Shown here piece by piece: positions 9,061-60,496 of a stretch of 64,000 bases of DNA. The DNA is from Verrucomicrobiota bacterium (GTDB lineage: Bacteria > Verrucomicrobiota > Verrucomicrobiia > JABWAM01): positions 62,001-126,000 of the forward strand of contig JAHFSY010000004.1 of assembly GCA_023269615.1 (NCBI GenBank), in the 5' to 3' direction. Below the pieces are notes generated by a model that saw only the letters and a program-made list of their open reading frames with translations, did no database searches and was not told the DNA's origin. How positions within the stretch are numbered: the stretch's first letter is position 1; every line of letters begins with the position of its first letter. The position numbers were made by a program, and so were the translations under genes.

Positions 9061-10611
9061 TCAATGACGGAAATGCCGTCGTCCCGTAAAAACCATCGCG
9101 AGATTCCGCTCGTCGGCCGCAGCGATCACTTCGGGGTCTTTCACCGATCCACCCGGCTGGATCGCGGTCGTCGCGCCAGCCTCGGCTGCGGCGATGAGAC
9201 CGTCGGGAAACGGAAAGAAGGCATCCGATGCGATCGCGCTTCCCTTGAGACCCAGGCCGGCCTCCTTCGCCTTCCACACGGCGATGCGGGAGGAATCCAC
9301 GCGGCTCATCTGTCCCGCACCAATCCCCAGCGTGCGGTCGCTCCCCGCATACACGATGGCGTTCGATTTCACATGCTTCACCACGCGCCAGCCAAAACGC
9401 AGCGCCCGCATTTCATTGGCGGACGGGGTGCGCTTCGTCACGACTTTCCAGTCGGGTTCGTTGACGGCCTGGTTGTCCTTCTCCTGGACGAGGACGCCGC
9501 CGGGGCAATCGCGGATGGCGAAGGACGCGGAGGCGCCGGATTGCTTGCGAATCATGAGGCGCAGATTTTTCTTTTTTGAAAGCAGCTCGCGGGCGTCGTC
9601 GGCAAACGCGGGCGCGATGATCACCTCGCTGAAAATTTCCGAGATTTTTTTCGCGAGCGCGAGGTCGAGGGGCCGGTTGACAACGATGATGCCGCCGAAG
9701 GGAGCCTGTCGGTCTGTGGCCAGCGCCTTTTCCCAGGCCTCGGCAAGATTGTCGTCCTGCCCCACGCCGCAAGGATTGGTGTGCTTGAGAATGGCGAGCG
9801 TGGGTTCGGAAAATTCCGCGATGAGATCGGTGGCGGCGGAGAGGTCGAGGATGTTGTTGTAAGAAAGCTCCTTGCCGTGGAGTTGTTCGAAATGGCGGCT
9901 GAAATCCCCGTAAAGCGCCGCCTTCTGGTGCGGGTTTTCCCCGTAACGCAATTCCTGCGCCTTGCGATGCGAGATTGAAAATTCCGCCGGCATGGCTGTG
10001 CTTGCTGTAGGAGCGGCTGTCAGCCGCGATTCCCCGGAAAGATATGAGGCGATTGCGGAATCATACCGCCCCGTGATCTGAAACACCTTCGCCGCAAGCC
10101 TTTGTCTCGTGGCAAGCGTCGTGTTCCCCTCCCGCTTCAATTCCTCCATCACCACGGAATAATCCGCAGGATCCACAACAACGGTGACGCTCACATGATT
10201 TTTCGCCGCGCTGCGCAGCATGGACGGACCGCCGATGTCAATCTGCTCGATGGCTTCTTCGCGCGTGCAACCCGGTTTGGCGACGGTGGATTCGAAGGGA
10301 TACAAATTGACGACCACGAGATCAATCGGCGTGATGCCATGCTCTCGCGCCTGTTTCTCATGTTCCGCGTTGCCGCGAAGGTGAAGCAGTCCGCCATGAA
10401 TTTTCGGATGCAACGTTTTCACGCGCCCATCCATCATCTCCGAAAACCCCGTGTGCTCGCTCACATCCTTCACCTTGAGCCCCGCGTCGCGAAGCGCCTT
10501 CGCCGTGCCGCCCGTGGAAAGAATCTCCGCGCCGGTCTGCGCGACAGTTTTCGCCAGTTCCACGATACCGGTTTTGTCGGAGACGGAAATGAGCGCGCGT
10601 TGAATTTTCAT
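9061..10611 (-). CDS. purH: Bifunctional AICAR transformylase / IMP cyclohydrolase
   Basis: 516 residues, the usual PurH length. The N-terminal MGS-like IMP cyclohydrolase domain shows [14 protein letters not shown] and [17 protein letters not shown]. The C-terminal formyltransferase domain shows [15 protein letters not shown] and [10 protein letters not shown]. It catalyses the last two steps of IMP synthesis in the cytoplasm. The linker before RYGENPHQ ([11 protein letters not shown]) is encoded by a copy of a dispersed palindromic element at 10007-10030, which appears to be an in-frame insertion in a tolerant loop. It is monocistronic as far as seen. Confidence 0.96.
10007..10030. repeat. 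Family C palindromic element inside purH
   Basis: The sequence gtaggagcggctgtcagccg and the four bases after it match, with a few substitutions, the intergenic palindrome seen at 44168-44190, 44217-44239 and 42075-42113. Here it lies within the purH reading frame and contributes a linker peptide without breaking the frame. Confidence 0.65.
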
Positions 10612-22002: not shown

Positions 22003-22578
22003 TTGGTCTTGCTCATGGGAAAGCATCGCGCGCATATCGTCCACGTTGTTATGATGGATCTAAGTGGGGTTCTTGTCCTGGCAGCTCTCTCCATGGGACT
22101 TGGGCTTGGCATGAACCACCTTCGCGCAAGACCTTTGGATGCGATGTACAGGACACCCAGGGAGCGAATTTTGGCCTCCGAGCTGTTGCAGGTTCAACCA
22201 GGTGTCAAGATGGGTGAGATTATAGAAATCTCCATGAATGAAATGCGTCGTCTGACATCTCTGCAAAATGTCATAATCCTTGATGCACGACCGGATCTTT
22301 TCTACGAGGATGGACACATCCCCTCCGCTCTGAACCTCCCGCGTGATGATTTCGACAGGCGCCTGCCTGGAATTCTGTCGGCGTTGAGGGATCCCAAAAT
22401 TCAAAAAATTGTCGTATATTGTGCAGAGGAATCCTGCGAGGACGGTCACACGGTCGCGCTCGGTTTGCAGCGGCTCGGGCTGGGTGACATCCATATTTTT
22501 CGCGGCGGCTGGAGTGCGTGGGACAAGGCCAGATTCAAGGTGCAAAGGGGAGCGCCGAGCAGCATTGAAAGCCGATGA
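22003..22578 (+). CDS. Membrane-anchored rhodanese-like protein
   Basis: 191 residues from a TTG at 22003, which has GGGGAG about 6-7 bases upstream; ATGs at 22015 and 22051 are alternatives. A single N-terminal helix (LSGVLVLAALSMGLGLGM) precedes a rhodanese domain: VIILDARPDLFYEDGHIPSA, active loop VVYCAEESCEDG with Cys140, and IHIFRGGWSAW. The domain likely faces the periplasm and handles persulfide or thiol chemistry. Its stop overlaps the MauE-like start (ATGA). The loop contains a second cysteine (Cys145), which is not standard. Confidence 0.88.
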   Translation: MVLLMGKHRAHIVHVVMMDLSGVLVLAALSMGLGLGMNHLRARPLDAMYRTPRERILASELLQVQPGVKMGEIIEISMNEMRRLTSLQNVIILDARPDLFYEDGHIPSALNLPRDDFDRRLPGILSALRDPKIQKIVVYCAEESCEDGHTVALGLQRLGLGDIHIFRGGWSAWDKARFKVQRGAPSSIESR

Positions 22579-23099
22579 GCAAGCACTCCACATTACGGCA
22601 AGGATCAATGGCATTTGTCCCGGCAAGACTTGTGAGTCTCGCTTCACTTGCGCTGGGAATGATCTGGTTGTATGCGGGAATCACGAAGGCCGCCTCGCCC
22701 ATGCAGTTTGCCGATAGTGTGGCCAGTTTTCAAATATTGCCCCCGTCTTTGATCCAGTCATTCGCCCTCAGCCTGCCATGGTTGGAGATTCTCATGGGAA
22801 CATTTCTTGTGCTGGGTATTTTTCAGACCTATAAACCTTCGGTGGCGCCGCTTGTCCGCATGGGACTTCTTGGAAGCAGTCTTCTCCTGATCCTGTTCGC
22901 CGCGGCCATTTCCTGGTCACTCGCAAGAGGAATTCAAATCGATTGCGGATGCTTCGGGGCCAGTCGTCTTTCATCGACTGCCAGGACGTGGCTCGCATTG
23001 GTTCGGGATGGAGTGCTTTGTTCAATAGCCTTGGTTGCTTATTATTATAGTATAATAACAACATCTTTTGAAATACAGAGTCGTGCTGTTCAAGTTTGA
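22575..23099 (+). CDS. MauE/DoxX-family redox membrane protein
   Basis: 174 residues with four helices (LVSLASLALGMIWLYAGITK; ALSLPWLEILMGTFLVLGIF; VRMGLLGSSLLLILFAAAIS; VRDGVLCSIALVAYYYSII). The motif IDCGCFG (Cys124, Cys126) sits in the loop before the last helix, as in MauE-type proteins that help form disulfides in exported partners. Co-translation with the rhodanese (ATGA overlap) suggests a shared thiol pathway serving the Cys-rich exported protein encoded at 26495-27121. Confidence 0.85.
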   Translation: MSKHSTLRQGSMAFVPARLVSLASLALGMIWLYAGITKAASPMQFADSVASFQILPPSLIQSFALSLPWLEILMGTFLVLGIFQTYKPSVAPLVRMGLLGSSLLLILFAAAISWSLARGIQIDCGCFGASRLSSTARTWLALVRDGVLCSIALVAYYYSIITTSFEIQSRAVQV

Positions 23100-23129
23100 C
23101 GCATATGGAGAACTCGCTACGATCATGCT

Positions 23130-23867
23130 ATGTTGATGTATCGAATCCATGCAGGGTCGGGAAAGCGGTTTGCTTTCAGCTTGATTGAGCTTTTGGTGGT
23201 GATGGGCATCCTTGGAATTCTTGCAGGCATGTTGCTTCCGGTGCTATCCAACATGGTGGAACGCCGTCGTCGTGTTGTTTGTGTGAACAACCTGTCACAG
23301 ATTGCCAAGGCAACCCAGGTGTATGCCAACGAGAATGATGGCTATGCCCCAAACATGCTTCTGGCCACGCACGGGCTTCTTCCCTACCTGCAACTCAAGA
23401 GTGTGGATGACCTCAATAATACGAGACATGTCTTTTACTGTCCTTCGGCCAGCGGAAAACTGATCGTCACGACTGGCAGCCCAACCACGCAGTTTGTGCC
23501 CGATGCAGTATATGGCGGGGCTTATTCCACGATGGGGGGATTGCAGTGCTATGGTTACAACGTCGGCCTGCTGCCGGGGTTCGAGGTAAACAATGAATGG
23601 CTTCCCATTGGTTACCCGGGGGTGCTGAGACTGTCGGCGGTGTCGGATGCGAGCAAGGTTCTTTGGTCCATGGACGGCGGCGGCTATTGGATGTATCTCT
23701 TGTTCCCCAATGTTGCCGTTCAGCGCCACGGGAGAACGGATTGGGGACGTGGCATCGGATTCAACGCAGCCTTTGCCGATGGTCATGTTGAGTGGATTCC
23801 ATGGGCCAAATTTGATGCCTGGCACCAGTCAGGCTATCCACATGGCGAACCTTATGCCTGGTGGTGA
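23130..23867 (+). CDS. Prepilin-like secreted protein (type II signal), DUF1559-like
   Basis: 245 residues. The N-terminal segment RFAFSLIELLVVMGILGILA is a class III signal: Phe16 would be +1 and Glu20 +5, followed by a hydrophobic stretch. The position before the cleavage site is Ala15 rather than Gly. The C-terminus has FADGHVEWIPW, the ending typical of PVC prepilin-like paralogues (H-x-DGHV). Many PVC genomes encode dozens of these with unknown roles. It is followed by the C39-like gene after 6 bases, within the same operon as the rhodanese and MauE genes. Confidence 0.88.
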   Translation: MLMYRIHAGSGKRFAFSLIELLVVMGILGILAGMLLPVLSNMVERRRRVVCVNNLSQIAKATQVYANENDGYAPNMLLATHGLLPYLQLKSVDDLNNTRHVFYCPSASGKLIVTTGSPTTQFVPDAVYGGAYSTMGGLQCYGYNVGLLPGFEVNNEWLPIGYPGVLRLSAVSDASKVLWSMDGGGYWMYLLFPNVAVQRHGRTDWGRGIGFNAAFADGHVEWIPWAKFDAWHQSGYPHGEPYAWW

Positions 23868-23873
23868 ATCGCA

Positions 23874-24482
23874 ATGATTCTTTCACTCCTTCGTCGCGGC
23901 TGCTTCATGGTCGTGGCCTTCGTCATTCCCGGTGCACTCGCGGCCCAGGTTCCGGCGCCAGCGGCTGAATCGCTGGGAAAAGAATGTTTTCTCATGGCGT
24001 GTCGGCATGCGCAGAGATCCTTTGCTTTCGATGAAAAACGTGCGGCTTCCATGAAGTTCGAAACTTTGGAGCAGATGGATCACCATGCGAAGGCGCTGGG
24101 TCTGCAGGCCTGTTTGGCACAACTCACCCCGCGGCAAATCGGACAACTCCACGATGCGGCGATCTGCATGGACTCCGAACTGACTGGCGATGCTTCGCGC
24201 CCCTTGGCCGTGATGATGCGCGACGATGACGGCGTTCATCTGTGCGTTCCAGGGCGGCGAAACGTCACCATCGAGATGCCGCAGTGGAAACTCTTTCCGA
24301 AGAGGGTGCCCGCACTGGTCATCGCACGTGAAAGACTCCCCCTTTGGCTCTACATTCCCTGGTGGGCGCGGTCTCTGGAAACGGTTGTCCCCGTTTTTTT
24401 TGCCGTGGCAGTTCTGGTGTTGTACTTTCGGAAACGGCAGGCCGCATCCCGGCAGAAGCCAGATCGCAGGAAAGCCGCGTGA
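23874..24482 (+). CDS. C39-peptidase-like protein lacking the catalytic Cys (pseudopeptidase)
   Basis: 202 residues: signal peptide (MVVAFVIPGALAAQ), a C39-like domain, and a C-terminal helix (VVPVFFAVAVLVLYF). It aligns with the neighbouring C39 protein (24550-25158) across its length: LGKECFLMACR against CGPDCLYIALK, ALGLQACLAQLTPRQIGQL against SKGFHTSLAQLSHREIART, and VHLCVPGRRN against NHFIIARSIGN. Leu34 stands where the partner has catalytic Cys37; His122 is kept. It is therefore probably an inactive homologue acting as chaperone, inhibitor or partner. The two genes converge and are paralogues of equal length. Confidence 0.72.
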   Translation: MILSLLRRGCFMVVAFVIPGALAAQVPAPAAESLGKECFLMACRHAQRSFAFDEKRAASMKFETLEQMDHHAKALGLQACLAQLTPRQIGQLHDAAICMDSELTGDASRPLAVMMRDDDGVHLCVPGRRNVTIEMPQWKLFPKRVPALVIARERLPLWLYIPWWARSLETVVPVFFAVAVLVLYFRKRQAASRQKPDRRKAA

Positions 24483-24549
24483 GGAGTTGTCGTGGAAACC
24501 GGTCGGCGCGGAGGCCGCAACAGGCATTCAGGCGAGTTCAATAATTGAT

Positions 24550-25158
24550 TCACTTGATCCTCAACAGTCCCCTGACTTTCCTGGAGGACAGGCAGAGCGA
24601 AAGGATGATCGTAAGAGCCGACGAATACCAGATCCAGCTTGGCCAGAATCGGTAGAATCGAATCGGCGTCTGGCTCAGGACAAGGCACCCGTACTTCGTG
24701 TCTGGGTGCTCATCAAATTCAATGGATTTTTCATGGACGAAATCAGGTGGGTTGATGAACTGGACGAAATCATTGCCGATGCTGCGAGCAATGATGAAGT
24801 GATTTGGCCCCTTGAAGGTCGCCATTTCTTCCACAGATTTGTCGAACGCGATGACGAACACGCCGGTGCGGGCAATTTCCCGATGGGACAATTGCGCCAG
24901 GGATGTATGGAAGCCTTTTGATTTTGCGTACGTCTGCATCTCCACGAGTGTGAGCCCAGCCTCCCCTGGATGGAGGTCCAATATCAGCTCGTCGTACGTT
25001 GCCCGCTTGTCGAAGAGTTTCAGTGCGATGTAGAGGCAGTCTGGTCCACAGAGTTTGGCATCCGGGTTGGCAGCCTGTCCGTCGCCTGTGATTACCGCAA
25101 GAAAGCTGGCGGTTAGAAGAACGGTCAGGATCCGTCGCATGGGCTCGTGGAATGTCAT
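24550..25158 (-). CDS. Membrane-anchored C39-family cysteine peptidase
   Basis: 202 residues. A signal peptide (ILTVLLTASFLAVITGDGQA) precedes a C39 fold: KLCGPDCLYIALKLF (catalytic Cys37), LTLVEMQTYAKSKG, NHFIIARS (His120) and QFINPP (Asn136). A C-terminal helix (WYSSALTIILSLCL) anchors it. C39 peptidases cut leader peptides after Gly-Gly, usually as part of ABC exporters. This one is stand-alone and exported, so it would act outside the cytoplasm. Its ATG overlaps the stop of the upstream gene (ATGA), which supports the start at 25158. Confidence 0.82.
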   Translation of the reverse strand: MTFHEPMRRILTVLLTASFLAVITGDGQAANPDAKLCGPDCLYIALKLFDKRATYDELILDLHPGEAGLTLVEMQTYAKSKGFHTSLAQLSHREIARTGVFVIAFDKSVEEMATFKGPNHFIIARSIGNDFVQFINPPDFVHEKSIEFDEHPDTKYGCLVLSQTPIRFYRFWPSWIWYSSALTIILSLCLSSRKVRGLLRIK

Positions 25159-26234
25159 GACGCAGGCCGCCCCGATTTACCCCGACGCGTTGGAGCCGCC
25201 TGCTCCTTCGAAGCAAGAATCAACGCGTCCAATATTGTTTCGCGGGACTGCTGGTCGGCTGCATTTGAGTTTCGATGAATCTCGTAGGCGCGGCCCTCAA
25301 TATTGTCCCAAACCCGCGTTTGAGGAGGAAATTCGGGAGAAAAAATTTCATCCTTGATTTCCCCATTGAGACGGACGCTGTTCTTAACGATCTCAATCAC
25401 ATATTTCCCATGGCCCAATGAATTGTCTTCGGTAACTTCGATCCGGGTTGGAAGCCATGTATCTCCAAAACGCTCACTGGTGATGTCCATCGTTGTAGAT
25501 GTCATCCTTCCGTGATCTTGCATGCGCACCTCGGTTCTCACAAGCGATCCATTTTCAATGTCAACCCAGTATATGAAACACGGCTTGTCGGGAGGCGGTG
25601 CTTCCTCGGGGCCCGCTAATGGGTCGGGGTGCCCGGCCTGCATGCAATCGATCCCAACAACCGCTCTTCCGTTGATGGATTCATTTGATGCAACCATTTT
25701 GAAGCGTACATCCTGATTTGGCTCTGTTAGTAGGGTCTTCCATGTATCGATGTATGAAAAGACACTCATCGGAATGACGACGTTGATGCTGCCGTCTGCC
25801 ATCTTCAGCGGGTCGCCGTTGGAATCGACACCTAGTTGATATTCACGAGGGTGTGCGAAACGGTGCCACTTCATCCATTTTGATCCGTCGTACGCCGTAG
25901 TTTCCAAACCACGCAGCACTGACGCATCTGCCTCGCCGTAGTATCGCGTGACAATTTTCTGCTGAAGTTTTTCACGTTTAAAGTTGTAGGTGGTCAGACT
26001 CGGAGCAGTTAACCGGAATGGATATTCTACAGGCGTATTCGCTGCAAAAACATGCGGCCCGGGTGTCATACGGTACTCCAGAGAGAGCGTTTGAATGGTG
26101 TCGTAGTTTTGTTTACACAATCCCAAAATGACACCTCTCGTCGGGATCTCTTCCCCGAAAGCGATCGCAGTACACCCCACACATGCGAACAAGCGGGCCA
26201 ATAGAAACAAGTTGTTTTGCGCAATTGAAGCCAT
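25155..26234 (-). CDS. Secreted LolA-like protein of unknown function
   Basis: 359 residues with an N-terminal signal peptide (FLLARLFACVGCTAIAFG, cleavage near GEE). The rest is beta-rich (QNYDTIQTLSLEYRMTPG, KPCFIYWVDIENGSLVRTEV, LPTRIEVTEDNSLGHGKYVI). This recalls the LolA/outer-membrane-lipoprotein-sorting fold found in many PVC secreted proteins, but the match is loose. It is coupled to the C39 peptidase gene by an ATGA overlap and lies downstream of the Cys-rich protein, so the three probably form one operon. No catalytic motif was seen. Confidence 0.6.
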   Translation of the reverse strand: MASIAQNNLFLLARLFACVGCTAIAFGEEIPTRGVILGLCKQNYDTIQTLSLEYRMTPGPHVFAANTPVEYPFRLTAPSLTTYNFKREKLQQKIVTRYYGEADASVLRGLETTAYDGSKWMKWHRFAHPREYQLGVDSNGDPLKMADGSINVVIPMSVFSYIDTWKTLLTEPNQDVRFKMVASNESINGRAVVGIDCMQAGHPDPLAGPEEAPPPDKPCFIYWVDIENGSLVRTEVRMQDHGRMTSTTMDITSERFGDTWLPTRIEVTEDNSLGHGKYVIEIVKNSVRLNGEIKDEIFSPEFPPQTRVWDNIEGRAYEIHRNSNAADQQSRETILDALILASKEQAAPTRRGKSGRPAS

Positions 26235-26494
26235 AATTTATTAAAGTGGTTCCAAAAGCATCTCAGTGAGATGAGCATACAAGCGATATGGAAAAATGCC
26301 CGATAAATATGGATGTGGCGCCCATGGCGGACAACCAGACGCCAACAGTTTCCAATCCACGCGAGAGTTCGTTTGAATTTCCAGCGTTTGCGATAGCGAC
26401 GCAGGGGTCTGCCATCTTGCTATGCCGCCGGGCGCTTGCGGCCCCTGTCGATGCGGACACGCTTGTAAACGGCTGCAAGGACGCTCTGAAGCGT
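26235..26494. other. Spacer of 260 bases with no recognised gene
   Basis: It lies between the Cys-rich gene and the LolA-like gene. Short frames exist on both strands (71 residues minus, 77 plus), but neither has a recognised domain. It could hold a promoter for the LolA-like/C39 pair or a small unrecognised gene. Confidence 0.5.
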
Positions 26495-27121
26495 TTAAGG
26501 CAAACAGATATATTGCTTTAAGCAGGTTGCGTTTGGGGCCTGGTTTCCCAAGGGGCCGCAGGTGCCGGCTGCGGTCTGTGTTTCAATCCGAGTCCACGTG
26601 GTGACTTTTTTGACCTTCACATGTGTCAGGGATATCACTGCCTTCGTTGTCCAGACTGCTGCCGCGGCAGGCGCGACGGCAGGTGCAATCTTTCCTTCAC
26701 AGTCCTGATGCACCGTCTGTGAGCACGTATCCGGTTCACCATTTTCCCGGGTTCTGGCATCTTCTTGGCAGTACTTGTTTACCGCGACGTCACACTTCGG
26801 CGCGCAAGCGTCTTGAATTGCCGGGGCAACTGTTACCGTTGTGGTCACGGGCCCCGGGACATTCTGTGGTGACGTCGTTGTCCATACGAGTTTCGCCGTC
26901 CTTACCCATGTTGATGTGGTTGGCGCCGAATTTACACACCCTGCTGGGTCATTCTGGAGAGTTTGACACTCATCAACGCAAGCATCCCCAGGAGCACCAC
27001 CTGCGATCACCCGTAGTTGAATTGGAAGCTGATGGGCCAGTGTTTCGGCCGCCATGCTTAGAATGCTGAGCGTGCCCAGCGAGACAATCGCCGTCTTGAT
27101 ATGTTTTGTCGTGATCTTCAT
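26495..27121 (-). CDS. Secreted Cys-rich protein with Gly-Gly site
   Basis: 208 residues, unrecognised. A hydrophobic signal-like segment (TAIVSLGTLSILSMAAETLA) is followed by LPIQLRVIAGG, a Gly-Gly at 41-42 with Leu and Ile at the -7 and -4 positions of a double-glycine leader. The rest has 11 cysteines (48, 52, 62, 106, 110, 118, 133, 141, 188, 200, 206), partly as CxxxC pairs, in a Thr/Ala/Pro/Val-rich background. With a C39 peptidase and MauE/rhodanese genes nearby, it is a good candidate substrate for cutting and disulfide formation. It diverges from the large secreted protein gene. Confidence 0.62.
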   Translation of the reverse strand: MKITTKHIKTAIVSLGTLSILSMAAETLAHQLPIQLRVIAGGAPGDACVDECQTLQNDPAGCVNSAPTTSTWVRTAKLVWTTTSPQNVPGPVTTTVTVAPAIQDACAPKCDVAVNKYCQEDARTRENGEPDTCSQTVHQDCEGKIAPAVAPAAAAVWTTKAVISLTHVKVKKVTTWTRIETQTAAGTCGPLGNQAPNATCLKQYICLP

Positions 27122-27392
27122 GGATGAATCCTATGTTGGTGTTTGATTAATAGTATTATATGTAACGTAGTTTGTACGTATATTCTCAACTTGCGGGTTG
27201 CGTTGTTGCGGAACTTGCGTATCGTGTCAAATCTTTATTTTAGGAAATATGGAATACAGCAGTACACAACCACATACGCAGGAGTATGGCGGTTCGATGC
27301 TCGAACGGCAAATGGCCTCGCAGGGCGAGATGTCCATTGCGCCAACGGTCCCTTCAATAATCGACCACCTCCTGACGAAGCGAAACATTTCC

Positions 27393-29261
27393 ATGACAAT
27401 CATTGCACACTTCTCTCTCTTTTGGCTCGCGGCGCTCTTCTTTTGCCTTGGCGATGCCAACGCCGCGAATCGGCCCGCTACCGATCGCTTGGTGGAGACC
27501 ACCGTGCCGATGACGACGGATCTCGTTCTAGCCGACGGAAGCATGGACGGAGCGGCCATAGTAAGTGATGGATCGCCTTCAGGAAAGTTCCGAGCCGAGG
27601 CTCAATACAGGGCGCCGATCGCACCCACACCCGCTTATTTGGATGTTCAGGTGCATCCGTTCAGGCCCAACACCGATTCAAAGAGGGTTCCACCGGTGAG
27701 GGCTGCCGAGGAATTTTGCTTCGTTGAAGCTTATCTTACCAATCAAGCCGATCAGCCTGTGGAGTGGACGAAGGCCTTTCTCAATGGACAGAAACTGGGA
27801 GAGGTATTTCCTCAAAGGGATCTTGTCTGGTGGCAGTTTTATCCCACTCCAATGGCGAAGCCCGGGGAGACGATTGAACTTCAGATTTGTCTGGCTCATC
27901 AACCGAAGGAGGCGTTGAAAATTGAAGCAGAAACCAGGATGGGGCAACGTGTCGGAACGGAAATCAGTTCGTATGTGAGTCCGAGCCATCAAATCACCGG
28001 CGTCAGCTTCAGCTCGGATCGTCGAAAGGTCAATGCAACGTACGACGCGCCGCCGTTGAGCGAGGTTGTTGAGATTGAGGTCAATGGGATCGATCGGACG
28101 AAGTCCGCGCGCATTCTGGGCCAACCGGATCCCGCGAGGGAGTTTCCGGGCATGATCGAGGTCACAGTTCCTGATCCGGTGGCCGCAGGCGAGCTTGTCG
28201 ATCTTCGACTTCACTTCAAGAATCAGGCCGCGGCGCATTGTATCGTTCGGGCGTCCAAGGGGATTTTGCTGGATGCATTTGGGGTTCCTCCCGCCAATAG
28301 CCGTATCAGAAAACTTTTGGGGGTCGATCTTGCGCCAAATGCCGTGATGACCGGCAGTGACCCTGCCTGTTGCGACCGGGATCCCGCAATGATTCCAGGT
28401 GCCGATGCTTCGTACGTTCTCAACGAGCGAAGGTCAATGTATGGATCAGGGGATCAGCGGCTTGCGTTGACATTTACGTGCTGGTCCACTACTCCTGCGG
28501 CCACCCTGCCGATCTACGGGCAGTGCGCCGACGGGATTCTGACAAGCCCGTATCGCCTGGGTCATTCTGAGTTTATCCCAAACGAACTAAGTCGTTTTCT
28601 TGACGAGGAGGAGAACGCGTTCCGTTGGGCGCAGCTCGGCGCTCAGCCGCGCCCTTGGTACTGGATTCCGGAGTGCTATGTCCTGGGCGAAAACCCATTT
28701 ACGCGGCATCATCGAATGCTCGAAAACAAGGAATTGCGTTCGTTGGCGTACGCGGCGCTCGGGCATGGCGCAAAAGGCATCAACTATTTCTCGTTTGGTG
28801 TATTCGGTGCAATGGATCCGTGTCGGGCGATCGGTTTTATCAACAGCGTTCCATTGACAGAAGAAATCAAGAAACTGAACGCCGATATCCGCAATCTCGA
28901 AGCGCCTTTATCCTCATCGCTTCCAATGACAAGCAAGACGATCGGTGATGGCCTGACTGGGCTGCGCTACTATCTGCTGGGTAGCCCGCAGGACGGAATG
29001 GTGTTGATTGTTCGAAATCTCGATTACAGAACCGATTTGCAACAAAACGAATTGGGCGACAAGCCGAGGTTCTCATCGGTTGTCAAAAAGGACGTTAACT
29101 TGCGAATCGAGTTGCCCACTTGGGCCGCTGTATCCGAGGCCTCTGAGGTGATGAAGGAGGAGGGAGGAGGCTTTAATTGTCGGATCGAGGGGAAGCAGGC
29201 GGTCATCCAACTGGGCAATCTTTCCGTCGGGCGGGTGATCTGGCTCAAGCCGATGCGCTGA
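27393..29261 (+). CDS. Large secreted protein, glycoside-hydrolase-like C-terminal half
   Basis: About 622 residues from ATG 27393, which opens a good signal peptide (MTIIAHFSLFWLAALFFCLG). The frame itself is open from 27198, but the preceding 65 residues look non-coding. The N-terminal half is beta-rich (around DVQVHPFRPNT, ITGVSFSSDRRKVNATYDAP). The C-terminal half has TIM-barrel-like segments such as LRSLAYAALGHGAKGINYFS and FGVFGAMDPCRAIGF, which recall GH42-type hydrolases. No catalytic Glu pair was identified with confidence, so a hydrolase role is inference. The DUF1573 gene follows after 46 bases. Confidence 0.6.
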   Translation: MTIIAHFSLFWLAALFFCLGDANAANRPATDRLVETTVPMTTDLVLADGSMDGAAIVSDGSPSGKFRAEAQYRAPIAPTPAYLDVQVHPFRPNTDSKRVPPVRAAEEFCFVEAYLTNQADQPVEWTKAFLNGQKLGEVFPQRDLVWWQFYPTPMAKPGETIELQICLAHQPKEALKIEAETRMGQRVGTEISSYVSPSHQITGVSFSSDRRKVNATYDAPPLSEVVEIEVNGIDRTKSARILGQPDPAREFPGMIEVTVPDPVAAGELVDLRLHFKNQAAAHCIVRASKGILLDAFGVPPANSRIRKLLGVDLAPNAVMTGSDPACCDRDPAMIPGADASYVLNERRSMYGSGDQRLALTFTCWSTTPAATLPIYGQCADGILTSPYRLGHSEFIPNELSRFLDEEENAFRWAQLGAQPRPWYWIPECYVLGENPFTRHHRMLENKELRSLAYAALGHGAKGINYFSFGVFGAMDPCRAIGFINSVPLTEEIKKLNADIRNLEAPLSSSLPMTSKTIGDGLTGLRYYLLGSPQDGMVLIVRNLDYRTDLQQNELGDKPRFSSVVKKDVNLRIELPTWAAVSEASEVMKEEGGGFNCRIEGKQAVIQLGNLSVGRVIWLKPMR

Positions 29262-29307
29262 TGCGATGTCCGCATCCCTGACGGCGATCTGACAGAAATC
29301 CTCCCTG

Positions 29308-30381
29308 ATGTTCCATTTTATGAAATCCAGAATCCTGACTCCATCAAAAATCACCATCGGCGTCCTCCTTATTCTCATCCTGATCCTGTTGCCTCATGGG
29401 CCGCAGGCGGAAATGCTAGAACCCTCCTTTGACGCAGGCATGCTTCCGAGCAATGGCTCGCTTTCCGTCACACACGAGTTTCCCATCCGCAATCGAGGTT
29501 TCGGGATCCTGCGCATACCGGCCATGGAAGCGACCTGTGGCTGCACCCATCTCAGCGGTCCGAAATCCATCTGGCCCATGTGCAGAGGAACCGTCGTCGC
29601 CACCCTTACTTTTGACGCGCGCGCTTGGGGTCACAAGGACACTCTGATTTACGTCAAAACCAATGATCCCAACCACCCCATTCTGAAGACTCAGATTTCT
29701 GCGACGGCTCCTCTCGGAGTCGCGATGGTTCCAGCCAGTGTTGACTTTTCCGAGGTTGACGCCGGCCATTCAAAGGAGTTCGCAATCACAGTCCTTGCGG
29801 CAAAGGAATATGTTGGGAATGACTTCCATATCGAGTGTCTTCCCCCAAGCGCTCCGGACGGCGTGGGGGTCGTCAGCAATCATGTTGCGTACTCGGAGTC
29901 TGCTGTCTTGTCCACGCCGTGCCACAAGGCAACCTTCAAGATTGCGATCAATGGAAAAGGACCTGTCGGAGCCCGAAGCGAGAGCCTCAAGTTGGTGACA
30001 AAATCCTCCCTGCATGGCGGGACGGAACTTGTTCTGCCAGTCAAGTGGAAGCTTCTTTCGGGAGTACATTTTCGGCCCGAGAGTCTCTTTTTTGGAATGC
30101 GCTCGATGCCTTGCACCGTCACGAACAGTGTGGAGTTGATTTCCAGCACCCGTCCGATCACGCCGATGGACGTCTCCATCCCATCGCCGATTTTTCGCGT
30201 CGTCGAGAAGACCAGGATGGACGAACATCGGTGGAAACTCTCCATGGTCATGTCATCCGGCGATGCAAAGCCGGGCCGTGTCGAGTCGGAGATGATCGTC
30301 AAGTTCAAGAACGCCCCGGACGCCAGGCTCAAGCTGGGGGTTCTCCTGCTCGCGCCGTCAGATGCGTCGTCTGGCAAATGA
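29308..30381 (+). CDS. Secreted DUF1573-domain protein
   Basis: 357 residues. A signal helix (ITIGVLLILILILLPHG) is followed by immunoglobulin-like repeats. The first carries the DUF1573 hallmark ATCGCTHLSGP after VTHEFPIRNRGFGILRI; a second unit runs VDFSEVDAGHSKEFAITVLA. ATG 29308 or 29320 are both possible starts. DUF1573 proteins are widespread in PVC and Bacteroidota, where they often neighbour MauE and small exported Cys peptides. The CGC motif suggests redox or metal involvement. It ends the 22-30 kb block. Confidence 0.88.
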   Translation: MFHFMKSRILTPSKITIGVLLILILILLPHGPQAEMLEPSFDAGMLPSNGSLSVTHEFPIRNRGFGILRIPAMEATCGCTHLSGPKSIWPMCRGTVVATLTFDARAWGHKDTLIYVKTNDPNHPILKTQISATAPLGVAMVPASVDFSEVDAGHSKEFAITVLAAKEYVGNDFHIECLPPSAPDGVGVVSNHVAYSESAVLSTPCHKATFKIAINGKGPVGARSESLKLVTKSSLHGGTELVLPVKWKLLSGVHFRPESLFFGMRSMPCTVTNSVELISSTRPITPMDVSIPSPIFRVVEKTRMDEHRWKLSMVMSSGDAKPGRVESEMIVKFKNAPDARLKLGVLLLAPSDASSGK

Positions 30382-31264: not shown

Positions 31265-31525
31265 AGCTGCTGGCTGCTAGCTTCTAGCTGCTAGCAGCTG
31301 AGTGTTTCCAGCTTTTTGCGCGAGTGTTGAAAAAGGTTCTTTACGATTTCCGGTGGTTGTCAGAGCAACGGAGGGACACGCTCTGTCGTGTCCATTGGTG
31401 AATCGGTCCACAACCGGGCAAATGATCGCGAACCCTGGCCGCGCGCATTTGTCACTCTCAAAAAACATCATTGCTTGAAAATCCATTCGTAAAGTGGGCG
31501 GACACGACGGAGCGTGTCCCTCCGT
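31265..31525. repeat. Family A inverted pair plus agctgctagc-type repeats
   Basis: The left end (31265-31304) holds ctgctggctgctagcttcta and related units. A Family A copy at 31368-31394 faces an inverted copy at 31498-31525 (gacacgacggagcgtgtccc). The ctgctagc unit recurs inverted at 31536-31575 within the rimO 3' end and near 62250-62270. No gene was seen. Confidence 0.7.
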
Positions 31526-31549
31526 TTTCATCACAAAAAAGGCCAGCAG

Positions 31550-32971
31550 CTAGAAGCTCGCAGCCAGCAGCTTCTCCGCCGGCTCGGCGACGAGATCGTA
31601 CTCGGTGGAGGCGGTGATTTTTGCCTGCTGGAATTCGCCGGCTTGCCAACCTTTGCCTTTCAGGCGGACGCGGCCGTCGATGTCGGGGGCGTCGGACTCG
31701 GTGCGGCCGATCAATTTTTTGCCATCCTTGTCCACGAGGATGCGGAGGGTCTTGCCCACGCGCGAGGCCATGAGCTCGGCGGAAATTTTTTGCTGGGCGG
31801 CCATGAGTTTGTTGTAGCGCGCTTTTTTGGTGCGCGTGGGAACCTGGCTTTCCATGCGTCCTGCCAACGTGCCGGATTCCTTGGAATACTCGAAGACGCC
31901 GAGGCGCTCGAAGCGGGCGTCCTTCACGGACTGGAGGAGGGTTTCAAAATGGACGTCGGTTTCGCCGGGGAAGCCGACGATGAAGGTGGTGCGGATGGCG
32001 ATGCCGGGGACGATGGCGCGGGAGCGGGCGATGATGTTCTCGATATGGGCGCGGGATGTTTCGCGCCGCATCTTCATGAGCATGGCGTCGTCCATGTGCT
32101 GGAGCGGCATGTCAATGTAGCGGCAGACCTTGGGGGAGGCGGCGATGGTTTCCATCACGCGTTCGTTCCAGTGCGCGGGATGCGTGTAGAGGATGCGGAT
32201 CCAGAAATCGCCCTCGATGGCGTTGAGGCGCGTGAGCAACCGGCTGAGTCCGTCAGCCACGCCGAGATCTTTTCCGAAATAGGTGGTGTCCTGCGAGATG
32301 AGGAGGAGCTCCTTCACACCGTTGGCAACGAGCGCGCGCGCCTCGGCCTCGACGTCGTCAATCGTGCGGCTGCGGTGGCGTCCACGCATGATGGGAATGG
32401 AGCAGAAGGCGCAGGGGTGATTGCAGCCTTCGCCGACCTTGATGTAGGCGTAGTGCGAGGGGGTGAGCTGGTAACGCGGCGTGGCAAAGTCGTAGAGGTA
32501 GGTGGGCTTGCGGGAGACGAAGGATTTGAGATTTGAGATTTGAGATTTGAGATGACCGGAGTGCGGAGTGTCTTTTGGAGCTGGACGATTACTGACTGCT
32601 GACCGCTGAGGGCCGACAGCTATTTCTTCAATGATTTCGTGGATTCTTGGCACCTCGTTGATTCCGATGAAGGCGCTGACTTCGGGGAGTTCCTTTTGGA
32701 GATCGGTGGCGAAGCGTTGGGCCATGCAGCCGGCGACGAGGAGTTTCTGGCCGGGCTTGATCGAGTGGACCTGGTTGGCCTCGAGGATGGCCTCCACGGA
32801 TTCCTTGCGCGAGCTTTCGAGAAACCCGCAGGTGTTGATGATCACCACGTCGGCGTCAGCCTGGTTGGGCTCGATGGTGTGGCCTGCCTTGAGAAGCGTG
32901 CCGAGCATCACCTCGGAATCCACGAGATTTTTCGCGCATCCGAGGCTCAGGAGATGGACGGACGATTTCAC
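31550..32971 (-). CDS. rimO: Ribosomal protein S12 methylthiotransferase
   Basis: 473 residues. The UPF0004 domain starts with LLSLGCAKNLVDSEVMLGTL. The radical SAM cluster motif is GCNHPCAFCSIPIMRGRHRS, and a TRAM-type C-terminal domain follows. It methylthiolates an Asp of ribosomal protein S12. Between the UPF0004 and radical SAM domains sits an extra stretch of about 35 residues ending HLKSQISNLKS, encoded by repeat DNA. The C-terminal EKLLAASF is also repeat-encoded. Its start overlaps the RodZ-like stop (ATGA). Confidence 0.93.
   Translation of the reverse strand: MKSSVHLLSLGCAKNLVDSEVMLGTLLKAGHTIEPNQADADVVIINTCGFLESSRKESVEAILEANQVHSIKPGQKLLVAGCMAQRFATDLQKELPEVSAFIGINEVPRIHEIIEEIAVGPQRSAVSNRPAPKDTPHSGHLKSQISNLKSFVSRKPTYLYDFATPRYQLTPSHYAYIKVGEGCNHPCAFCSIPIMRGRHRSRTIDDVEAEARALVANGVKELLLISQDTTYFGKDLGVADGLSRLLTRLNAIEGDFWIRILYTHPAHWNERVMETIAASPKVCRYIDMPLQHMDDAMLMKMRRETSRAHIENIIARSRAIVPGIAIRTTFIVGFPGETDVHFETLLQSVKDARFERLGVFEYSKESGTLAGRMESQVPTRTKKARYNKLMAAQQKISAELMASRVGKTLRILVDKDGKKLIGRTESDAPDIDGRVRLKGKGWQAGEFQQAKITASTEYDLVAEPAEKLLAASF
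32523..32622. repeat. Repeat DNA inserted in frame in rimO
   Basis: 32523-32555 is a gatttga-type direct repeat (the same unit as in priA at 45666-45690). 32590-32622 contains tgactgctgaccgctgaggg-type units like those at 12405-12429. Together they encode an insert (around RSAVSNRPAPKDTPHSGHLK) absent from typical RimO proteins, without breaking the frame. Confidence 0.65.
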
Positions 32972-39507: not shown

Positions 39508-39680
39508 GACTTGAATTTAAGCGGTTTTTGGGTGGAAAGCAAAGTGGTTTTCCGTACGTTTCGGCCATCCCAAATTGAATGTTCCAAAAGGCGCGCTGGG
39601 CAGTATATTCAAACAAGCCGGATGGACACAAAAGGATCATTTTGAAATACGGATATTCCTCATCACCCGCCGTTTCAAGC

Positions 39681-41762
39681 ATGCGCGCGCGCTGGCAAGC
39701 TGCCATGCTTCTTCTCGCGATCGGATGTTGCATCTTCACCTCGGGCTGTTCCAGGTCGGTGAACGGATCTGAAAAAATCAGGGCGGCCAAGACGGACGGG
39801 AACCTCGAGCCTGAGCCAGCGTCCAGACTTTCGGGAAGGGTTTCGACCCCCGAGGGTAAGCCCGTCGTGAGTGCGCGTGTGGCGTGGATTGCCAAGGGTG
39901 AACAATCCGGCGGAATCGAACTGGCCTCCACCAGGACGGATGAACAAGGACGATTCCTCTTCGAAAACAGCGGCGCTCTCCGAGCCAAGGGAACCTGGCC
40001 ATCGCTGCTTATCGAAGCGCCGGGGTGGGGAATGACGCCTGCGATGGTGCCGGAAGCCGCGACCCAAATGGATGTCACCTTGAGACCAGCGACAGAGGTG
40101 TCGGTCTTGGCTGTGGATGCTTCCGGCAAACCCGTAACGGGGGTGCTCCTAAATCCGTATTTCCTCATGGCGCCCAACATGGAATTTTATTTTAGGTTTC
40201 CGCAAGATATGAAGACGCGTCTTGGCCGGCGGACCGACGCCCATGGACTCTGCCGGTTTGAGTTCTTTCCGCCGGGTGTGAAGCTCAGGTTGGAGGTTGC
40301 GGACGACCGTTTTGCCCACCTCGATTTTTCCGAGGACCTCTCCCTTGGCCAGAGCACTGGGAACTCCCGTCATCAGATCACCCTGCTGCCCGCTGCCTCC
40401 ATTCAAGGGCGGATCACTTATGGTCCTACAGGAAAACCCGCTGCCGGCATCCGAATTGGCGCTCAAGGGGTCGGGCCATCAGCCCTCGGAGGCGAGGGAG
40501 TCAGCACCGATCAAGGTGAATATCTCATCAAACAAATGAGACCCGGCATCTACAATCTCACCCCTGATCTCCGAGGCGAGGTTGAAAAATCCTGGACGGC
40601 GTGTGCCCACGAGAAAATCCCTGTTTCGCAAGCCGAGCAGGTCAAGGGCGTGGATTTCCAGTTGATCAAGGGAGGAGTGATCACGGGAAAGGTCACGGCG
40701 GCGGACAACGGCGATCCTGTCGTTGGGCTTTCTCTCTGCGTCTATGGACCGGCTCACCCCCGATCCAGCGGCGGGGTCCAGCGTTCTGACTCGGGAAAAG
40801 ATGGAGGTTATTTCTTGCGCGTTCCCCCCGGCGAACATTTTCTCTACATCGGTGGCCGTCCTCCCGGGCGCTTTCTCGAGAACGCCTGGAGTTCACGTGA
40901 TGTCACGGTCAAGGATGGCGAAACAGTCACCATCAACATCGCCTTGCCGCGTCGCGCAGAAACCAAGCCCGTTTTGGGAAGGGTGATTGGTTGGGATGGA
41001 AAACCAGTGCCCGAGGCGCACATCGAGGCCCTTCCCGATGACAATCACGGGGAATTCGGCGTCCAGATGACACAGAAGAGCGACAAGGATGGGCGCTTCC
41101 AGATTGACATGAACGAGCAACCCGGCCCTGTCAAGCTGAGGGCGCGGCTTGGCAATAACACAACCACACTGAATGTGCGGGTTGAGAGCGGGGACGAGGT
41201 GACCCTCCAACTTCAAACCAACGCATTGTGCTCCCTGTCAGGCCGGGTGCTGGATGCCAACGAGAAACCGATCTTCGACGCACCGATCCAGTTGACTGAG
41301 TTCAGTCTTGGACAGGGTATTGGCCGGGTTGTAACCACCACCGATCGTGAAGGCCGCTTTCAAATTGGCAGCCTGTGGCCGGATTGTGGTTACGCTGTGT
41401 CGGCAACGGCGAAGGGATACGGGCGGAATGAGTCGCGGATCATGCAACTGGAGCCTGGACATACCCGTGAACTCGTTGACTTCATCTTGAAACGGGCGAC
41501 AAAGAGCCTTGCGGGCAAGGTGGTCAACGAAAAAGGTGAAGTCTTGATGGGTCTGACGGTCTGGATGGACAGCGAAGAATCCGCCCACCAGAACGTGACC
41601 ACGGATCGCGAGGGGCTGTTCCGATTCGATCAGGTGGTCGAGGGAGAGGTTCGCCTCAGCGTCACGGGGCTGGTTGGTCAGGGTGCAAACGGAACTTTTC
41701 AGGCGGGTGAAACCAATCTCGTGATCAAGGTGGAAACTGAGGTCAAACCCACGGCCCGGTGA
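39681..41762 (+). CDS. Surface lipoprotein with repeated carboxypeptidase-regulatory-like domains
   Basis: 693 residues from ATG 39681; the open frame begins at 39579. The signal ends in the lipobox TSGC (LLLAIGCCIFTSGC), so it is a lipoprotein. The body contains about six to seven beta-sandwich units of the CarboxypepD_reg/Cna-B type (SGRVSTPEGKPVVSARVAWI, QGRITYGPTGKPAAGIRIGA, LGRVIGWDGKPVPEAHIEAL, LAGKVVNEKGEVLMGLTVWM). These proteins usually act in adhesion or polysaccharide binding at the surface. No catalytic domain was seen. Confidence 0.85.
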   Translation: MRARWQAAMLLLAIGCCIFTSGCSRSVNGSEKIRAAKTDGNLEPEPASRLSGRVSTPEGKPVVSARVAWIAKGEQSGGIELASTRTDEQGRFLFENSGALRAKGTWPSLLIEAPGWGMTPAMVPEAATQMDVTLRPATEVSVLAVDASGKPVTGVLLNPYFLMAPNMEFYFRFPQDMKTRLGRRTDAHGLCRFEFFPPGVKLRLEVADDRFAHLDFSEDLSLGQSTGNSRHQITLLPAASIQGRITYGPTGKPAAGIRIGAQGVGPSALGGEGVSTDQGEYLIKQMRPGIYNLTPDLRGEVEKSWTACAHEKIPVSQAEQVKGVDFQLIKGGVITGKVTAADNGDPVVGLSLCVYGPAHPRSSGGVQRSDSGKDGGYFLRVPPGEHFLYIGGRPPGRFLENAWSSRDVTVKDGETVTINIALPRRAETKPVLGRVIGWDGKPVPEAHIEALPDDNHGEFGVQMTQKSDKDGRFQIDMNEQPGPVKLRARLGNNTTTLNVRVESGDEVTLQLQTNALCSLSGRVLDANEKPIFDAPIQLTEFSLGQGIGRVVTTTDREGRFQIGSLWPDCGYAVSATAKGYGRNESRIMQLEPGHTRELVDFILKRATKSLAGKVVNEKGEVLMGLTVWMDSEESAHQNVTTDREGLFRFDQVVEGEVRLSVTGLVGQGANGTFQAGETNLVIKVETEVKPTAR

Positions 41763-58810: not shown

Positions 58811-59062
58811 GGTGCGGAATTAGACAGAAGGGGGTCCGGGAAGCAAGCCTGCCAGAAAAGCCGCGAGGAAGTTCTCCCTCGCAATGTCAATCACTTCCCA
58901 ATGTGCGGCTTGCATGGCGCCTTGTTGAACCGGCGCCCGACAAAAATTCAACTGAAAAATCTGGATGTGGCCGCGTTCGCCAGAACGCGGTTCCGCGGGA
59001 CACCCGGCACGCACATCCCTTGAAATTTGACTTTCATCGTGGGAAGGCGTTCCAATGACCGC
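58811..59062. other. Intergenic stretch between HEAT lipoprotein and pyruvate kinase
   Basis: Divergent promoter region of about 250 bases. A palindrome ccgcgttcgccagaacgcgg at 58971-58990 is a diverged relative of Family B. No gene or clear promoter boxes were fixed. Confidence 0.5.
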
Positions 59063-60496
59063 ATGAGCGCCCCGGTTCGTCTCCCTCCCCCGCGCAAGAC
59101 GCGCATCATCGCCACGGTGGGGCCCAGCAGCGAATCGTTCGAGCGCCTCCGCGAACTCGCCGAGGCGGGCGTCAATGTCTTCCGCCTCAATTTCTCCCAT
59201 GCGAAACACGACTGGGCGCGCGGGGTCGTCACCCGGATCCGCGAACTCGAACAACACCTTGGCCGCCCGATTGCAATCCTCATGGATACCCAGGGGCCGA
59301 GCATTCGCACGGGCGAGCTCCCTGTCCCGCTCACGCTCGTCAAGGGGGGCATCTTCACCTTCACGGTGGGCGCTGAAAAACCCGACGACGGCCCTGGCGT
59401 GGGCGTGAATTACGACAAGCTCGACGACGATCTTTCGGTGGGCGACACCGTTCTCGTGGACAATGGCGTCATTCGCATGAAGGTGCTGGAAAAGAAACGC
59501 GACCGCATCCGCTGCGAGGTGCTCACCCCGGGCATCATGGGGAGCCGTCGCCACATCAACCTCCCCGGTGTCAAAGTCAGCCTGCCTTCCATCACCGAAA
59601 AGGATTTCGTTGATGTGCGCTGGGGTGCTGAGAACGGCCTCGACTTCGTCGCCCTCTCGTTCGTCAGGACGCGCGCCGACATCGAGCAGTTGCGTGAATT
59701 CCTGACCAGCCTCAGATCGCCCATGCGCATCCTCGCAAAGATCGAGGACCAGGAGGCGGTCCGGAACTTTGACGAGATTCTCCATGCGGCCGACGCCGTG
59801 ATGGTCGCCCGCGGCGACCTCGGCGTGGAACTCCCTTTCGAGGAACTGCCCATCCTCCAGCGTCGCATCGTGCGATCCTGTCTCCGCTTCAACAAGCCCG
59901 TCATCGTCGCCACGCAGATGCTCGAGTCCATGATCGAGAATCCCATGCCGACCCGCGCCGAAGTCACCGACGTCGCCAACGCCGCGTATGAGCAGGCGGA
60001 TGCCGTGATGCTTTCAGGCGAGACGAGCGTGGGACGTCATCCCGTGAAGTGTGTGGAAGCGCTCGACGCAATCACCCGTCGCATGGAGCGGGAGGAAGGA
60101 GCCAGCTTCACAAGCGAGGCTGTGTTCACCAATGACCGCCAGCGCCTTGTCGCATCGGCCATCATGCTCGCCAACGAATTGAAGGCGGTCGGTGTCGTGG
60201 TCTTCACCCACGCCGGCAACATGCCACGGATGGCGTCGTGGCTGCGTCCGCAATCGTCCCACATCTACGCCTTCACGCCGAACGAGACGATCTGGCGCCA
60301 GATGTGTCTCCTGTGGGGCGTGCGCGCATTTCAAATGGATTTGAAGGATGAGGACCCGGAAGTTTCGGTCCAGTCAGCCATCAAGGTCCTGAAAAAGGAA
60401 AATCTCGTGCAACCCGGCGACACCCTCGTGTTTCTTACGCAGGTACGAATGCACAACCAAGCTCACGACTCAGTCCAGCCGCGGAAGGTGACCTGA
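59063..60496 (+). CDS. pyk: Pyruvate kinase
   Basis: 477 residues from ATG 59063 (MSAPVRLPPP). The barrel shows KTRIIATVGPSSESFERLRE, VFRLNFSHAKHDW and IAILMDTQGPSIRTGELP. The phosphoenolpyruvate/metal site is MVARGDLGVELPFEELPILQ, and the C-domain begins ATQMLESMIENPMPTRAEVT. It makes pyruvate and ATP in glycolysis. The upstream in-frame start at 59027 is not preferred, as it extends the conserved N-terminus. Confidence 0.95.
   Translation: MSAPVRLPPPRKTRIIATVGPSSESFERLRELAEAGVNVFRLNFSHAKHDWARGVVTRIRELEQHLGRPIAILMDTQGPSIRTGELPVPLTLVKGGIFTFTVGAEKPDDGPGVGVNYDKLDDDLSVGDTVLVDNGVIRMKVLEKKRDRIRCEVLTPGIMGSRRHINLPGVKVSLPSITEKDFVDVRWGAENGLDFVALSFVRTRADIEQLREFLTSLRSPMRILAKIEDQEAVRNFDEILHAADAVMVARGDLGVELPFEELPILQRRIVRSCLRFNKPVIVATQMLESMIENPMPTRAEVTDVANAAYEQADAVMLSGETSVGRHPVKCVEALDAITRRMEREEGASFTSEAVFTNDRQRLVASAIMLANELKAVGVVVFTHAGNMPRMASWLRPQSSHIYAFTPNETIWRQMCLLWGVRAFQMDLKDEDPEVSVQSAIKVLKKENLVQPGDTLVFLTQVRMHNQAHDSVQPRKVT

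Follow-up and report, generated by a model that had tools for sequence, protein, structure and literature searches.

Do the nine genes at positions 22003-30381 of the window, the whole stretch of 64,000 nucleotides analysed here, form a single pathway, or do several unrelated units lie side by side? The original prediction had read them as one route by which a Cys-rich protein is exported, furnished with disulfides via MauE and rhodanese, and cut at Gly-Gly by a C39 peptidase. All nine open reading frames, named g1 to g9 in positional order (Table 1), are present at about the positions first proposed, on contig C104 of a draft genome of 4.48 Mb in 131 contigs, and model matches confirm the identities suggested for the rhodanese, the MauE protein, the prepilin-like protein, the C39 peptidase and the DUF1573 protein. 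The genes form three transcription runs, g1-g4 and g8-g9 on the plus strand and g5-g7 on the minus strand, with one convergent (g4/g5) and one divergent (g7/g8) junction, rather than the two convergent and two divergent runs originally described. Genes g1-g4 are closely packed, the first two overlapping by 4 bases. The neighbourhood is real and has at its base a conserved cassette of three genes, to which mostly orphan exported proteins specific to the lineage are added. We give about an even chance to the reading that its core is a periplasmic thiol relay made up of g1, g2 and g9, with g7 as the likeliest local client and with the C39 pair and the prepilin as a separate module.

Table 1. Genes of the block, with positions in the window and the basis of each assignment.
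Gene	Feature	Position	Strand	Basis
g1	Membrane-anchored rhodanese, C140-x4-C145 loop	22003..22578	+	PF00581 1.1e-15
g2	MauE/DoxX-like redox membrane protein, C124-x-C126	22575..23099	+	PF07291 3.6e-23
g3	Prepilin, H-X9-DG C-terminus	23130..23867	+	PF07963 5.8e-6, TIGR04294; N-methylation motif
g4	C39-like pseudo-peptidase, signal peptide and C-terminal transmembrane helix	23874..24482	+	Alignment with g5
g5	C39 peptidase domain, predicted periplasmic, C-terminal transmembrane helix	24550..25158	-	PF03412 4.2e-7
g6	Exported, weakly LolA-like	25155..26234	-	PF17131 E 0.064, sub-threshold
g7	Exported 11-Cys orphan, candidate thiol-relay client, signal peptide about residues 1-29	26495..27121	-	Sequence
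g8	Large secreted protein, beta-sandwich parts, poorly modelled centre	27393 (probable start)..29261	+	Own-genome paralogues; structure model
g9	Exported DUF1573 protein, C77-G-C79	29308..30381	+	PF07610 3e-8; NF041425 1e-11, below its cut-off

The cassette emerges from comparison across the phylum, which gene content suggests to be Verrucomicrobiota. A match to g2 is present in 89 of 289 genomes sampled from it, and the neighbourhoods of 80 MauE genes were read with the help of profiles seeded by g1, g2 and g9. A rhodanese gene lies on the same strand within 300 bases of MauE at 57 of the 80 loci and a DUF1573 gene within 3 kb at 33, all of which have the rhodanese as well; since the profiles were trained on the same loci that they counted and the genomes are related rather than independent, these counts describe the sample only. 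The rhodanese and DUF1573 models gave no match in 391 kb of sequence around other loci of the phylum. Reading in the direction of transcription, the order is DUF1573-rhodanese-MauE in 27 cases, rhodanese-MauE in 22 and rhodanese-MauE-DUF1573, the order of the block, in 6. When families are compared, rhodanese/MauE (in 28) and DUF1573 (in 16) alone recur widely as neighbours; the cluster that comes next reaches 8. Thus only three of the nine genes, those for the rhodanese, MauE and DUF1573, form a conserved unit, and the nine are not kept together as a set in related genomes.

The cysteine pairs of the trio are nearly invariant. The CxC of MauE is kept in 81 of 81 sequences, both cysteines of the rhodanese CxxxxC motif in 58-59 of the 59 homologues near MauE, and the CxC of DUF1573 in 32 of 33. 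Moreover, one genome (G150) carries a natural MauE-rhodanese fusion (L090:8999-10078), which is adjoined by separate MauE and rhodanese genes. The proposed association of MauE and rhodanese is thus supported by adjacency, fusion and invariant cysteines, and DUF1573 belongs with them. In selenoprotein relatives of DUF1573, which are predicted redox proteins, UGC or UxC stands at the CGC position (PMC9312934, PMC2398784), and because a Sec-Gly-Cys form exists among them the CGC of DUF1573 is likely a redox site. Near rhodanese-MauE genes, UGA-containing (Sec) forms of DUF1573 were sought and none was found; a rhodanese match with two in-frame UGA codons looked like noise. Our literature search yielded no paper on the rhodanese-MauE-DUF1573 trio or on DUF1573 and MauE together, and no experiment on any rhodanese-MauE pair; the few papers in which MauE, DoxX and rhodanese are all named do not, to judge from titles and term counts, treat the MauE-rhodanese pair. 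To our knowledge, the biochemical role of MauE and of DUF1573, widespread families both, is not settled. The trio points to rhodanese as the partner of MauE in this phylum and, with its near-invariant cysteine pairs and a natural fusion, offers a concrete and testable electron-transfer chain. Its interest is broader than that of the nine-gene block.

How does the block itself compare with the cassette? The rhodanese and MauE genes g1 and g2 are adjacent on the same strand, as in the counted pairs, g2 being the sole MauE match at E<=1e-5 in its genome, and all the cysteine pairs of the cassette are there (C140/C145 in g1, C124/C126 in g2 and C77/C79 in g9). In a tree of moderate support, g2 groups with MauE proteins of the same family and of genome G150 in a nine-row clade (96/78), the nearest split (81/26) not being resolved. 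Gene g9, on the other hand, is separated from g2 by six genes and 6.2 kb, outside the 3 kb of the full three-gene form, and as this is farther from MauE than in the 33 counted loci, g9 is placed in the cassette by analogy.

From these features we infer how such a relay might work. The CxC pair of MauE would exchange electrons at the inner membrane and pass them to, or take them from, the CxxxxC loop of the membrane-anchored rhodanese, which in turn would act on the exported CGC protein of the DUF1573 family and on exported Cys proteins, keeping their thiols in the right state. The relay may run in either the oxidising or the reducing direction, and a persulfide step is conceivable. In the lineage of the block, genes for exported proteins (g3-g8) lie between MauE and DUF1573, and the 11-Cys protein g7 would be the local protein most likely to have its disulfides formed as a client, much as the methylamine dehydrogenase light chain may be for MauE. 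The C39 pair and the prepilin would form a separate, duplicable module of a periplasmic or pseudopilus/secretion type that contributes no step to the redox pathway.

Several known systems resemble parts of this arrangement. The mau cluster, in which MauE and MauD serve the maturation of methylamine dehydrogenase, shares with the block a MauE with CxC and a linked exported Cys-rich client; however, the block lacks a light chain (PF02975), the neighbour of its MauE is a rhodanese, and g7, which matches no Pfam model, contains an odd number of cysteines. A periplasmic-type rhodanese together with a membrane thiol redox protein is also found in the TsoB rhodanese/DsbD fusion-like selenoprotein (NF045694) and in the rhodanese-related (seleno)protein (NF041203), models that g1 and its homologues match weakly and far below the curated cut-offs, yet the partner in the block is MauE and not DsbD. 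With the OS_HP2/DUF1573 (seleno)proteins (NF041425, PF07610) g9 has in common an exported DUF1573 domain and a CxC at the Sec-x-Cys position, although it is a Cys form and reaches 45 bits where the cut-off is 100. Finally, candidate RiPP clusters found with decRiPPter in Streptomyces combine MauE with a small precursor-like gene (excerpts of PMC7794033); they come from another phylum, no rhodanese-DUF1573 trio is named in those excerpts, and the likeness is one of description only. The block is best read as a previously undescribed form of the MauE-type thiol relay in the periplasm, accompanied by a candidate client.

But is there a client? According to excerpts of the same paper, which cites van der Palen 1997, the setting of MauE is methylamine dehydrogenase maturation, where disulfide formation in the beta-subunit has been speculated (PMC7794033). 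Three loci in our sample, all from one family and without a rhodanese, encode a 15-Cys protein close to MauE (L208:7114-7656, L211:4665-5207, L212:7141-7683), and the one of the three that was scanned, at L208, is a methylamine dehydrogenase light chain (PF02975 6e-47), an internal positive control. Relatives from the block's own family encode exported Cys-containing proteins and a protein with RHS repeats in the vicinity of rhodanese-MauE. At L249, L250, L253, L090 and L182 a conserved secreted hydrolase-like gene and an O-antigen ligase gene are followed by rhodanese and MauE, and in the first three of these the pair is followed or flanked by genes for an RHS-repeat protein and for an exported protein that contains Cys; L261 has rhodanese-MauE with RHS and Cys proteins and no ligase, and the short contig L251 has MauE, RHS and Cys proteins. 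No homology was detected between the relatives' Cys-containing proteins and g7, or among them, at the sensitivity used. Exported Cys-containing proteins are not enriched near MauE generally, crude counts by locus class being 18 of 38, 11 of 29 and 15 of 26, with a background of 21 in 408 kb. Taken together, the light-chain precedent, the Cys proteins of the relatives and the grouping of g2 with the MauE of most of them make g7 a reasonable client, and an exported Cys-rich protein as the client of MauE is, by analogy, plausible.

The candidate client itself stands alone. Of the exported 11-Cys protein that had been predicted, the signal-peptide-like start and the count of exactly 11 cysteines hold; its frame, on the other hand, is not conserved at the protein level, with no convincing homologue in 269 genomes, no Pfam match, and nothing in tblastn searches of plasmids and viral contigs. 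Its codon signal is weak, but it is as weak in g2, an undoubted gene. What speaks for g7 as a real gene is the AGGA and TATAAT upstream of its ATG, its signal peptide and its open length. The role envisaged for it is accordingly upheld in part: there is precedent for an exported Cys-rich protein as a client of MauE, yet g7 is an orphan and the general enrichment is lacking.

The second half of the original prediction, cleavage by the C39 enzyme, fares less well, even though the peptidase pair is as described. Genes g4 and g5 are paralogous (BLASTP 2e-7). The catalytic pair corresponds to C37 and H120 in g5, where N136 takes the position of the Asp; in g4, which itself matches no family model, the alignment with g5 shows the catalytic Cys and His to be absent. 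A profile search with g5 leads to ComA (6e-12), and the best PDB matches of its structure model (pLDDT 74) are the peptidase domains of PCAT and ComA (E 2.6e-5). It thus shares with these double-glycine peptidases the C39 fold and an intact Cys and His, but differs from them in the Asn and in being a stand-alone protein of 202 amino acids with no ABC exporter in the block. Moreover, its N-terminus resembles a signal peptide and basic residues come after its C-terminal helix, from which a domain anchored in the membrane and facing the periplasm is predicted. The C39 domains known to cleave at GG are located at the cytosolic face of ABC exporters. The residues before G41-G42 of g7, with I at P4 and L at P7, do resemble a double-glycine leader; however, the phi-x-x-phi-x-GG pattern occurs near the N-terminus in 5 of 68 signal-peptide-like open reading frames, so that its occurrence in g7 is not above chance, and Gly-Gly cleavage is not supported. 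The adjacency of all the genes and the intact catalytic residues of g5 speak for a single pathway in which g7 is exported, receives its disulfides from MauE/rhodanese and is cut after Gly-Gly, the dead C39 perhaps serving as an adaptor. Against this stand the chance frequency of the pattern, the lack of conservation of g7, the predicted location of g5 and the absence of C39 genes from all 80 MauE loci, and we consider it improbable. We give similarly little credence to a version in which the relay sets disulfides or persulfides on the exported Cys-rich protein and the membrane-anchored C39 enzyme then processes it in the periplasm with the dead paralogue as adaptor.

What, then, are the C39 pair and the prepilin? 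A search with g5 in 338 genomes found no second genome with a homologue, and a profile built from the two sequences g4 and g5 returned from 208 genomes of the class only the block copies, one extra copy in the same genome and two marginal matches; tblastn of g5 in plasmids gave nothing, and none of the C39 (PF03412) neighbourhoods inspected in the phylum resembled the block. On contig C28, the extra copy makes up the N-terminal part of an ankyrin-repeat protein of 1206 amino acids (L129:6677-10297); it has a membrane helix and lacks the catalytic Cys. Divergent from its gene lies that of a prepilin 79% identical to g3 (L129:10342-11082), and no MauE, rhodanese, DUF1573 or active C39 is found beside this pair. 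As the dead-C39/prepilin pair recurs without the redox genes, it looks like a separate module, which together with the 80 loci argues against C39 as a step of the redox pathway. The genome encodes at least 31 related prepilins with a common N-terminal region, the next closest to g3 after the copy on contig C28 being only 45% identical; a prepilin near any one gene is therefore weak evidence, but the repeated prepilin/C39-like pairing is not. This twofold pairing could mean that the module is an accessory of a type II secretion or pseudopilus system, in which the C39-like domain, anchored in the membrane and exposed to the periplasm, guides a pseudopilin or its cargo, or trims it, while the redox cassette keeps the disulfides of the cargo in order. 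A fold match of g5 to the periplasmic domain of EpsAB of Vibrio type II secretion (4g54) points the same way, but it is weak (E 0.015), the block holds no other secretion genes, and near MauE prepilins occur in 2 and C39 genes in none of the 80 loci, so that we regard such an accessory as rather unlikely. It is unusual, though it matters less than the cassette, to find a C39 enzyme with a membrane anchor and a predicted periplasmic location next to a dead copy and a prepilin.

The remaining exported proteins are g6 and g8. The LolA-like nature ascribed to g6 holds as to export and a weak likeness, but its score for PF17131 of 13.3 bits is below the curated cut-off of 30, and no convincing homologue was found in 269 genomes. 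No Pfam model matches g8, and two paralogues of it, about 33% identical, are encoded elsewhere in the genome, away from redox genes. An initial guess that it is a glycosidase was not established, as its structure model is of low confidence (pLDDT 55) and gave no usable fold match.

Could the nine genes then be no system at all? Such a reading would have the redox cassette, the module of C39 and prepilin, the orphan g7 and a member of the g8 family brought together in a variable region by insertion or drift, with functional links only among rhodanese, MauE and DUF1573. The lineage-specific character of g4-g7, the own-genome paralogues of g3, g4 and g8, the many prepilins and the three transcription runs are in keeping with it. 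So is the composition of the g1-g9 stretch, which is distinct: GC3 is 0.50-0.67 in these genes, whereas the closest flanking genes (rpoD, CPBP, glyoxalase-like, pgsA, rimO, ftsK) have 0.72-0.82, as do two more distant genes of the window (9061-10611 and 59027-60496), one other window gene (39579-41762) having 0.64. The stretch is either foreign-looking or under relaxed codon selection. No comparable block was found at the rimO locus of family relatives wherever contigs allowed a view, and a search around the block for marks of a mobile island found neither a tRNA gene nor a terminal repeat. However, the tight packing of g1-g4 and the 4-base overlap of g5 and g6, a coupled layout, suggest co-expression, and exported Cys proteins accompany rhodanese-MauE in the relatives too. 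We therefore hold it possible, if somewhat doubtful, that the nine genes share nothing beyond the cassette, and keep to a thiol relay with g7 as its candidate client.

Two repeat structures were noted in passing. Between pgsA and rimO, the window contains two nested imperfect inverted repeats with arms of 31 and 27 nt (31265-31572). Elsewhere in the genome, spurious open reading frames on several contigs (L162:13780-14487, L168:1094-1393 and L169:6343-7554) have in common a stretch of approximately VGRDRRARRCAADGPAVRPYL, which suggests a dispersed intergenic repeat.
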